Positions 43,879-54,459 of a stretch of DNA of 55,387 bases are shown here, piece after piece (position 1 is the stretch's first letter; each line of letters opens with the position of its first letter). The stretch is from an uncultured Opitutia bacterium (GTDB lineage: Bacteria > Verrucomicrobiota > Verrucomicrobiia > Opitutales > CAJWYM01). Made by a program: the position numbers and the translations under genes. Location of the stretch: positions 1-55,387 of the forward strand of contig CAJWYM010000013.1 in assembly GCA_913049555.1 (NCBI GenBank). Direction: 5' to 3'. The notes below the pieces were generated by a model. That model did no database searches, was not told where the DNA came from, and was given only the letters and a program-made list of their open reading frames with translations.

Positions 43879-44050
43879 GCCTGCAAACTTCAACGAGAAT
43901 TGGATAAAAATTGGATGAGAATCTGTTCTTTTTGAAATCTTTTTGAATCTTTTGGAGCAAGATACAACCCTCAATTGTTCATTTTCTTCTCAGAGTATTC
44001 TAAAATTCATAAATAAAGTGATATAAATGGCTTAAAAATAGGGCTTTGTG

Positions 44051-44081
44051 TTGACATGTGGGGAAAAATGGCAAAAGGTGG
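44051..44081 (+). promoter_or_regulatory. mraZ: mraZ promoter region with TGG repeats (MraZ box)
   Basis: A TTGACA hexamer at 44051-44056 is followed by three TGG triplets at 44059, 44069 and 44079, exactly 10 bases apart (TGGGG-N5-TGGCA-N5-TGGTG). This matches the known MraZ target of TGGGN direct repeats with five-base spacers. I cannot place the -10 box with confidence. Confidence 0.65.
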
Positions 44082-44117
44082 TGAAGTATCCTTAATAATC
44101 TATTTGCAGTAGAATAT

Positions 44118-44588
44118 ATGTCCACCTCTCCAAGAATTCGATTTGTCGGATCATCCAGTCATAATTTGGATGGCAAATTTCGTTTGACAATTCCATCAAA
44201 GTGGAGAGGAAAAACCTCTGAGGACATGGAATTTATAGGGATGCCAGACCCTGAAGGGTGTTTAGCAATTCATCCACCAAGAATGATTGAAAAAATGGAG
44301 GATCGAGCTGCTCAAATAAGCATGGGTGACACCAAGGGTCAGGATGTGTTAGCTCAGGTTTTTGGAAACGCAGAGACCTTTTCTTTTGATAAGCAGGGTA
44401 GAATTATTCTTCCTGATGGTTTACGTGAACATGCAAATATCAAAAAAGGAATTGTTTTAGTAGGACATCTCAGTCATTTCCGAATTTGGAGTCTCGAGGA
44501 ATTTGAGAAGAAACAAAAAAAAGAGGAACGTGAGCTTAGTTCTGAAATGCAAGAATTAAAAAGGGCGCTGCAGGAGTTAGGACTGTGA
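44118..44588 (+). CDS. mraZ: transcriptional regulator MraZ
   Basis: A 156-residue DNA-binding protein built of two SpoVT/AbrB-like halves. The two DxxxR motifs are present: DGKFR at 18-22 and DKQGR at 91-95. In other bacteria MraZ binds TGG repeats upstream of its own gene and tunes the division cluster; such repeats are present here. An acidic, lysine-rich C-terminal tail (about 128-156) is longer than in E. coli. It is the first gene of the dcw cluster, and its stop overlaps the next start. Confidence 0.93.
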   Translation: MSTSPRIRFVGSSSHNLDGKFRLTIPSKWRGKTSEDMEFIGMPDPEGCLAIHPPRMIEKMEDRAAQISMGDTKGQDVLAQVFGNAETFSFDKQGRIILPDGLREHANIKKGIVLVGHLSHFRIWSLEEFEKKQKKEERELSSEMQELKRALQELGL

Positions 44589-44815
44589 AAAAAGGTTTTT
44601 CCTCTCAAAGCCTAACTTTTCAATTGAATGCAACCGGTGCAATTTGTAAGGCTCATTACCGCCTCCAAGATGAAGAAGATTTTATTGGATTGTCGAAACC
44701 GAGATTTCGAATGAACGCTTTTGAATTGAAGGAATTGGATGAGATAGAGTTACAAGAAAAGGGACTGTTGTTTAAATTCTTCAAGATTCTCCGACAATAT
44801 AAACATCTATTTTAG
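44585..44815 (+). CDS. small protein in dcw cluster
   Basis: A 76-residue protein that begins at a GTG overlapping the mraZ stop by four bases and ends one base before the rsmH GTG, so it sits fully inside the operon. It has no signal peptide or membrane helix; the C-terminus (LLFKFFKILRQYKHLF) is basic and amphipathic. I recognise no family. Tight coupling on both sides argues that it is a real gene. It may be a lineage-specific cell-division or ribosome partner, but there is no direct evidence. Confidence 0.6.
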   Translation: MKKGFSSQSLTFQLNATGAICKAHYRLQDEEDFIGLSKPRFRMNAFELKELDEIELQEKGLLFKFFKILRQYKHLF

Positions 44816-44816
44816 A

Positions 44817-45752
44817 GTGCATTCAGGTCATATATCAGTGTTGGGTAAAGAGGTCGTTTCTCTAATGGGAGACTCCGATCAGTCTTTGTATTTGGATTGT
44901 ACTTTTGGTGCAGGGGGGCACAGTCGAATGTTATTGAACAAGTACGCCTCCTCTAGGGTGATTGGATTGGATCAAGATTCCGATCGCCAGACTCAGGTGG
45001 ATGCCTTGAAGAATGAATTTCCCAATAGAATGGATTTTTACAACTACAATTTTAAAGATTTGGATCAAATTTTGGAGGATCAATTTGATGGGGTCTTATT
45101 TGATTTTGGTGTTTCCTCTTTTCAATTAGATCAAGCGGATCGAGGATTTTCTTTTTCAAAACCAGCCCCATTAGATATGAGAATGAATCGCAAACTCGGA
45201 ATTCCTGCGAGTGAGTTTTTGAATACGGCTTCTCCTGAGGTGATTCGCAAATCATTGAGGGATTATGGTCAAGAGAAAAGATGGAAGCCAGTTCTAGAGG
45301 CGATCTTGAATGCAAGAGGCTCCGAAGTCTTAGAAACTACAGATGGTTTGGCTCAATTAGTCTATGAGGCGGTGGGTCCAAAAGCCGTTCGTTTGAGTAA
45401 GATTCATCCCGCTACATTGACTTTTCAAGGAATTAGGATTGCTGTGAATGAGGAACTCTCAGTGATTGAAGAAGCTTTGCCAAAAGCTTTTGATAAACTT
45501 GCAGAAGGGGGGATCCTGATTTGTATCAGTTTTCATTCATTGGAGGACAGAATTGTAAAAAGATATTTCCGAACTTTGTGCGGACTTCCTTTGGACCGAT
45601 TTGATTCAAGACCTAAGCAAGAAAGGACGGTATCTGCAACCGCCCTTACTCGAAAACCAATGAAAGCCAGTGCTGAGGAATTGGAATTCAACCCTAGAAG
45701 TCGCTCTGCAAAACTACGTGCCATAAAGAAGGGAGTCTTTTCTAAACAATGA
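44817..45752 (+). CDS. rsmH: 16S rRNA (cytosine(1402)-N4)-methyltransferase
   Basis: SAM-dependent methyltransferase (MraW) of 311 residues that modifies C1402 in the ribosomal P site. Motifs: DCTFGAGGHS at 27-36, FDFGVSSFQLD, DMRMN, RIAVNEEL and SFHSLEDRIVKRYF. All conserved elements and the length are typical. The start is a GTG. It overlaps the next gene by four bases (ATGA). Confidence 0.96.
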   Translation: MHSGHISVLGKEVVSLMGDSDQSLYLDCTFGAGGHSRMLLNKYASSRVIGLDQDSDRQTQVDALKNEFPNRMDFYNYNFKDLDQILEDQFDGVLFDFGVSSFQLDQADRGFSFSKPAPLDMRMNRKLGIPASEFLNTASPEVIRKSLRDYGQEKRWKPVLEAILNARGSEVLETTDGLAQLVYEAVGPKAVRLSKIHPATLTFQGIRIAVNEELSVIEEALPKAFDKLAEGGILICISFHSLEDRIVKRYFRTLCGLPLDRFDSRPKQERTVSATALTRKPMKASAEELEFNPRSRSAKLRAIKKGVFSKQ

Positions 45753-46123
45753 GGCATATCAAACATGTTCTTTGGAGTCCAATAGTCATTTTTATGGGTA
45801 TCTTGATTCTTATTTTCGGAGGAACGAGTGCTCTGGGAATTGTCTGGTTACGAGCTCAAATAAATCAGACTGCTGGGATTATCAAACAACAAGAACATGA
45901 GTTGATAGTAATCGAAAGAAAAACTCGCGAGTCGAAATCTAAAATTGCGATTCTTCATCAGCCTTACAATCTTAAAAAAGCATTGCATAGTGACTTTGCT
46001 CCTACCAAAGCGGAGCAAGTGTTTGTAGTTGAAGAAAGAGCGGATGGCTCCAAAGTTGCTAAGAGAATGATTCGATCTAAAAATGGAGAGAAAGTTGTTT
46101 TTCTCGTTGGAGGTCGGAGATGA
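45749..46123 (+). CDS. ftsL: FtsL-like division protein
   Basis: A 124-residue bitopic membrane protein. One helix spans about 9-33, followed by a coiled-coil region (about 36-70, QINQTAGIIKQQEHELIVIE). This is the FtsL/DivIC pattern: a scaffold that, with FtsB and FtsQ, activates the FtsWI synthase. Primary sequence similarity is low, so the call rests on topology and on the position between rsmH and ftsI. Confidence 0.75.
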   Translation: MRHIKHVLWSPIVIFMGILILIFGGTSALGIVWLRAQINQTAGIIKQQEHELIVIERKTRESKSKIAILHQPYNLKKALHSDFAPTKAEQVFVVEERADGSKVAKRMIRSKNGEKVVFLVGGRR

Positions 46124-53247: not shown

Positions 53248-54459
53248 ATGAAACTTACAAAACTAATTGGTATCGTTCTCTCATTACACCTTGGAGTTGC
53301 AGGAATGCTTCTGTTTCAGCCAGGTTGTCAAACTTTGCAAATGGATGAGAAACCGGAGATCAATCCTGTCCAAACTCTGGTTCCTGAAAAAGGGGAAGAA
53401 AGAGCCAGAATACTGATTGGTGAGAAAAAGGATGATTTGCCCGTTATTCAAGGAAATGATGAAGATAATTTTAACTCTGATACCATTCGTAACCGCAGAT
53501 ATCTCCCCTCCCGCCCTGTGGAACCCATTATTCCAGAGACACCTTCAGAAGTGGATTATGTATCGGTAGTAGAGGAAGTTTCTCCCGATGAAAAAAGTGA
53601 TTTTTTCAATGTGGACTCCGTAGAACTCGTTCTACCGGATTCCTCTAATTTAGAATTTGATCTCAGCGAAAACGAAGATGCTGAAACAGTATCAGAGAGC
53701 TCTCGAGAAGTTTACTATGTTCAAAAAGGAGACAGTCTATGGAAGATTTCTCGAACTTTTGGCACGAGTTTGTCTGCAATCATGGATGAAAATGGTTTGC
53801 ACAATAATTCGGTTTTAAAAATTGGCCAAAAATTATATTTACCTTCTAGTGCTTCTCCATCAACTTCCAAAAGCTTTGTTTCGAAAGTCCCAGTCTCCAT
53901 TCCTTCTATAGAGGATGAGTATATTGTCAATCGTGGGGATTCTCTAAGCAAGATTGCTCGTATGCATGGAGTTTCAGTGTCAGAATTGAAAAGTTCCAAC
54001 AGTTTGTTTACCGATCGAATCAATATAGGCCAGAAACTAAAGATACCAGGGGCTGGATCTAGAAGCTCTTCCAATGAATCTACCAAAAGCATTTCCGAAC
54101 CCCTAGCAACAGGGTCGGTTTATTTAGTTCAACGAGGGGATACTCTTGGTAAGATAGCTGCCATGTATGGAATGAAATCATCGGAACTTGCAAGAATCAA
54201 TAACTTGGCAAATCCCAATCGTTTAAAAGTTGGGCAGCGATTGACGGTTTCTTCTCCAAGTGATAATTTTTCTGCTACTTTAGTTCCATCGAAAGTCTCT
54301 TTACCGGTGAAATCCAAGCCGAAACCAGAACCTATCAAAATAGAAGAGCCGATGTTTGATATGGATTTGGACCTTGATTTGGATAGCAAAGATATCAACG
54401 ACAATTTCTTCGAACAAGACCTTGATATCCCGGTTGTTAACGTAATTGAAGCTGAATAA
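53248..54459 (+). CDS. exported LysM-repeat protein (three LysM)
   Basis: A 403-residue exported protein with a signal peptide and a possible lipid anchor at Cys27 (FQPGC, an imperfect lipobox). A Pro/Glu-rich region (30-150) leads to three LysM peptidoglycan-binding domains at about 156-199, 225-267 and 292-334, each with the YxVxxGDxLxKI pattern. The C-terminus is very acidic (DLDLDLD). No catalytic domain is present. It sits between murD and ftsW where classical clusters have none, so it may be a septal wall-binding factor. Confidence 0.85.
   Translation: MKLTKLIGIVLSLHLGVAGMLLFQPGCQTLQMDEKPEINPVQTLVPEKGEERARILIGEKKDDLPVIQGNDEDNFNSDTIRNRRYLPSRPVEPIIPETPSEVDYVSVVEEVSPDEKSDFFNVDSVELVLPDSSNLEFDLSENEDAETVSESSREVYYVQKGDSLWKISRTFGTSLSAIMDENGLHNNSVLKIGQKLYLPSSASPSTSKSFVSKVPVSIPSIEDEYIVNRGDSLSKIARMHGVSVSELKSSNSLFTDRINIGQKLKIPGAGSRSSSNESTKSISEPLATGSVYLVQRGDTLGKIAAMYGMKSSELARINNLANPNRLKVGQRLTVSSPSDNFSATLVPSKVSLPVKSKPKPEPIKIEEPMFDMDLDLDLDSKDINDNFFEQDLDIPVVNVIEAE

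Follow-up and report, generated by a model that had tools for sequence, protein, structure and literature searches.

Predicted MraZ Operator of Ten-Base TGG Boxes over the mraZ Promoter Region of an Opitutia Bacterium

The TGG Array Upstream of mraZ

Three direct TGG repeats at an exact step of ten bases, located ahead of mraZ in the window (the whole 55,387-nucleotide stretch of DNA that was analysed), very probably constitute an operator for the MraZ protein, as judged from the sequence and its relatives. The conserved sequence of the boxes, their step of ten bases, their orientation and their place before mraZ together make this much the best reading. With a probability of roughly 0.9, the array serves as operator for the division and cell wall cluster, where binding of MraZ would result in negative autoregulation. 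The elements concerned are as follows.

44051–44056, + strand: probable −35 element, TTGACA (from the sequence; 125 of 138 usable relatives carry TTGAC and two or more of the four boxes)
44059–44068, + strand: MraZ box 1 (predicted), TGGGGAAAAA (sequence and relatives)
44069–44078, + strand: MraZ box 2 (predicted), TGGCAAAAGG (sequence and relatives)
44074–44079, + strand: weak −10 candidate, AAAGGT, spaced 17 bases from TTGACA, matching at 2 of 6 positions and ending in the T of box 3
44079–44088, + strand: MraZ box 3 (predicted), TGGTGAAGTA (sequence and relatives)
44089–44098, + strand: place of a fourth box, decayed here, TCCTTAATAA (TGG in 94 of 125 anchored relatives)
44118–44588, + strand: mraZ, 156 aa, two MraZ stretches with DXXXR in each half (DGKFR, DKQGR) (profile scans)
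44817–45752, + strand: rsmH (mraW), the long gene that comes next in the division and cell wall cluster (Pfam and NCBIfam scans)

The array in the window reads, in order, TTGACA, TG, the three boxes TGGGGAAAAA TGGCAAAAGG TGGTGAAGTA (44059–44088) and then TCCTTAATAA. The first TGG follows the end of TTGACA after two bases, the triplets start at 44059, 44069 and 44079, and 29 bases lie between the end of box 3 and the ATG of mraZ at 44118. An earlier note on this DNA had placed the triplets at these positions, after TTGACA and before mraZ, and both triplets and spacing are confirmed in the sequence. It had also equated the period with the known MraZ pattern, and the step of ten bases is indeed found in the sites of E. 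coli K-12 and B. cenocepacia. The E. coli MraZ box has the form TGGGN with 5-base gaps. This form is not strictly kept in the window, where boxes 2 and 3 begin with TGGC and TGGT; the repeats are direct, of TGG(G) type and at step 10 upstream of mraZ, and TGGG is not present in every box. A triple pattern restricted to TGGG had no match anywhere in the genome.

Rarity of the Array

In the window the bare pattern TGGN7TGGN7TGG is found a single time against 0.35 expected, and 30 of 100 shuffled sequences contain it at least once. Over the whole genome it was found at 40 places, compared with 5 for the reversed pattern. Given these figures, the TGG triplets alone prove little. When TTGACN3 was placed in front of three TGG at step 10, the pattern was found once in the window and in none of 100 shuffles. 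A scoring matrix was derived from 125 relatives, with the window excluded from its construction. The top place in the window for this matrix is 44059, at 20.7 bits, with two shifted registers of the same site at 20.0 and 19.7 bits; the best non-overlapping match in the window reaches 5.7 bits, and the maximum over 600 kb of Markov sequence is 14.4 bits. In the genome to which the window belongs, TTGACN2-5 followed by three boxes is present at two sites, one at mraZ and one on contig 82 (reversed control, 1). The latter sits within an open frame of 426 aa that runs on the opposite strand and appears PurF-like by eye.

mraZ and the Genes Behind It

The gene downstream of the array encodes an intact two-domain MraZ. 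PF02381 matches it in two stretches at 82.8 bits, against a cut-off of 23, and the genome search located MraZ at a single place, the two stretches belonging to one gene. The motif DXXXR, one in each half, is the signature of MraZ. Of 59 proteins inspected, among them those of E. coli and the window, 56 have it in both halves and 3 in neither. Solved structures matched by sequence are all MraZ chains, comprising four distinct sequences (e.g., 1n0e and 9qlr). The score for TIGR00242, the MraZ equivalog, is 87 bits against a cut-off of 98.35, which is counted against the operator reading; such a score may fit a divergent member of the family.

Behind rsmH lie a 124-aa open reading frame without a family, a gene for a penicillin-binding protein (PBP) transpeptidase, and further genes on the same strand, which were read as mur, mraY and ftsW-like from their open reading frames. 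The 124-aa frame (45749–46123, + strand), between rsmH and the PBP gene, is at the place expected for ftsL and has no Pfam or NCBIfam match. A 76-aa frame (44585–44812, + strand) begins where mraZ ends and occupies the interval up to rsmH, also with no Pfam or NCBIfam match. Small frames occupy the same gap in relatives from families f8 and f20, five of which were aligned; profile comparison of the 76-aa frame with these five found no homology (hhalign probability 0.24%). Farther downstream, a frame at 53248–54459 (+ strand), between the murD-like and ftsW-like frames, carries V.RGDSL.KIA-like repeats that appear LysM-like by eye. For Verrucomicrobium spinosum, a passage in PMC1845146 describes a division and cell wall (dcw) cluster without MraZ.

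Conservation of the Boxes across the Order

Matches to mraZ were obtained in 242 of 273 genomes of the order. From the matches listed, 139 loci were taken (29 as returned, 80 by region and 30 individually, the latter two groups being spread over families), and one of them (L015) was dropped for runs of N, leaving 138 usable upstream regions. One distant locus from a scan of genome contigs was left out of the counts. A run of at least three TGG at exactly step 10 was found in 100 of the 138 regions, and in none on the opposite strand. Runs at other steps were few: 6 at step 5, 1 at step 6, 0–2 at each of steps 7–9 and 11–19, 20 at the harmonic step of 20, and 1 at step 21. At least one triple run at step 10 was present in 18 of the 23 families examined, so that both strand and step are kept together with mraZ among relatives. 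With the probable −35 element as anchor, TTGAC together with at least two of the four boxes was found in 125 of 138 regions, compared with 1 on the opposite strand.

The consensus box is approximately TGGGGCAAAG, with column counts of T-G-G-G-(G)-N-A-A-A-(A/G). TGG is strongly conserved and the A-rich tail less so, the tail being clearest in box 1. Among the 125 anchored regions, TGG is present in box 1 in 110, box 2 in 111, box 3 in 101, box 4 in 94 and box 5 in 11. Since boxes 1–4 are mostly TGG and box 5 is rarely so, four copies are the normal number and the fourth was lost in the window, a loss that is counted against the operator reading. TGT is the chief alternative, found in box 2 in 10 and in box 3 in 18 of the 125. 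In several genomes of families f2 and f21 (L052, L056, L059, L068 and L076), box 2 is TGTCA rather than TGGGN, with boxes 3 and 4 mostly TGG; this recurring TGT variant resembles the AAAGTGT form of Mollicutes.

Two further results are counted against the operator reading. In five families (f5, f7, f8, f14 and f25), none of 15 regions contains a triple TGG run, several of these families still possessing two boxes or TGT forms. Outside the order, where the set consisted of 17 loci with the stronger matches, at least three boxes were found in 6 of these best 17; in 4 of the 6, by eye, TTGAC starts 10–11 bases ahead of the array.

Promoter Geometry and Proposed Mechanism

In the window, the distance from the start of TTGACA to that of the array is 8 bases. 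Over the 126 anchored sequences, of which the window is one, the start of TTGAC precedes the array by 6–10 bases (54 at 8, 34 at 10, 20 at 9, 17 at 7 and 1 at 6), and hence both the spacer and the −10 position fall within the array. An overlap of binding with the polymerase site, as suggested in the earlier note, would fit this position of the array. Its remark that the −10 box is not clear also holds: the promoter scan found no plus-strand promoter in 43950–44200, and the absence of a recognisable −10 in the window is counted against the operator reading. When relatives were grouped by distance and searched at spacings of 15–20, the most TATAAT-like hexamer ended in the T of box 3, with a spacing of 16, 17, 18 and 19 for distances of 7, 8, 9 and 10, respectively, and mean matches of 2.9–3.5 of 6. 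The distance from TTGAC to the boxes shifts by single bases among families (7, 8, 9, 10), and the −10-like hexamer remains locked to the array. Because this hexamer is inseparable from box 3, no −10 is claimed; either a −10 is built into the array, or a box simply resembles one.

In the proposed mechanism, MraZ from the gene just downstream would bind the three direct ten-base boxes, four being usual in relatives. Recurring once per helical turn, the boxes would present themselves on one face of the DNA with one subunit contact per turn, and probably several subunits of a single MraZ ring would be engaged together. Since the array begins two bases past the −35 element, over the spacer and the place of the −10, bound MraZ would exclude RNA polymerase, and this exclusion would produce negative autoregulation of mraZ and of the genes behind it. 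A more specific proposal, that MraZ competes with the polymerase for the −35 and −10 themselves, the T of box 3 also serving as the final base of the −10, is tentative, and we give it somewhat less than even odds. If true, the dcw switch would work by occlusion of a core promoter with a weak −10 and not by a block at the start site. The earlier note had considered autoregulation well supported in this lineage. That judgement stands for the site, owing to its conservation across the order, and not for binding and repression, which we infer from E. coli, B. cenocepacia and Mollicutes; cooperativity, an exact −10 and the transcription start would be of the same kind.

Alternative Explanations

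The simplest alternative, that the triplets fell together by chance in a G-rich patch, can appeal to the frequency of the bare pattern (0.35 expected per window, 40 places in the genome). It is met by the conservation of place and step in the order and by a matrix score exceeding everything in 600 kb of Markov sequence; in our view the conservation refutes it, and its probability is negligible. The G-rich repeats might instead form a promoter G-quadruplex, as proposed for S. aureus mraZ, and not a protein operator. For S. aureus, PMC11796246 describes a G4 motif close to the mraZ promoter, and it reports that motifs able to form a G4 are conserved ahead of mraZ in other bacteria; the window likewise has boxes rich in G, to which a two-tier GG pattern can be fitted. 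The pattern of four G3 runs with loops of 1–7 bases, however, fits 23 of 125 anchored relatives and not the window, and a quadruplex needs neither the exact step of ten bases nor the leading T nor the A-rich tail, yet all of these are conserved. A quadruplex is accordingly held to be very improbable. The conserved G4 reported may possibly be the MraZ box array itself, a plainer reading of the motifs described before mraZ elsewhere.

That MraZ binds but activates, or that another regulator uses the array, is unlikely. In its favor, FtsZ was raised when MraZ was overexpressed in M. gallisepticum (work of Fisunov et al. 2016 that PMC8475190 cites). Against it, the same text reports that deletion of mraZ in M. 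genitalium raises expression of the cluster, the array sits on the presumed core promoter, and in most cases the array is found where mraZ is (67 of 87 placeable sites). These sites come from a search with TTGACN2-5 and three boxes, which returned 107 sites in 97 of 177 genomes of the order (13 for the reversed control). Of the 107, 67 stand immediately before a listed mraZ, 20 lie at other places and 20 could not be placed. One of the 20 elsewhere (G089) is an mraZ site if its contig of 3,986,899 bases is circular, as mraZ ends 26 bases before the contig end and the site starts at base 21.

A wider MraZ regulon was considered on account of the 20 of 87 placeable sites lying away from mraZ, but was rejected; by eye, the 19 that remain without G089 mostly lack the A-rich tail in both boxes. 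The exception, with a loose tail, is a related pair (G107 and G085) inside a long open frame that appears TatD-like by eye.

Significance and Comparison with Known MraZ Sites

The operator predicted here is a control switch of a kind already known; what sets it somewhat apart is solely its location over the core promoter, a placement seen repeatedly in the order. The result adds a lineage remote from E. coli to those with an MraZ operator, here built of a conserved ten-base box that usually occurs four times, and provides a matrix ready for finding such operators elsewhere. Among the titles and abstract openings of the MraZ literature in the matches listed, none tells of such an operator in Verrucomicrobiota.

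Passages in PMC8475190 cite an mraZ operator with MraZ boxes in E. coli (Eraso et al. 2014) and a Mollicutes MraZ site of AAAGTG[T/G] repeats (Fisunov et al. 2016), and report repression by MraZ in E. coli and M. genitalium. The order-wide boxes resemble these Mollicutes repeats in their junction A(A/G)-TGG/TGT, the Mollicutes being a very distant lineage. In B. cenocepacia, according to PMC7761207, the fragment bound by MraZ carries four repeats of 7 nt separated by 3-nt spacers; these repeats of PmraBc are direct, which gives the same step of ten bases, but they are situated past the −10 and extend over the transcription start, unlike those of the window. The array of E. coli K-12 likewise consists of three TGG boxes at step 10, before mraZ and in the same orientation (TGGGAAATTG TGGGGCAAAG TGGGAATAAG), whereas boxes 2 and 3 of the window are without the third G. 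In E. coli, 38 bases separate the start of TTGACA from that of the array, which lies behind the hexamer read as the −10 (TAAACT) at a gap of 8 bases. In the window the corresponding distance from TTGACA is 8 bases, and the array extends over the spacer and the −10 position. The on-promoter placement offers a simple contrast to the downstream placement in E. coli.
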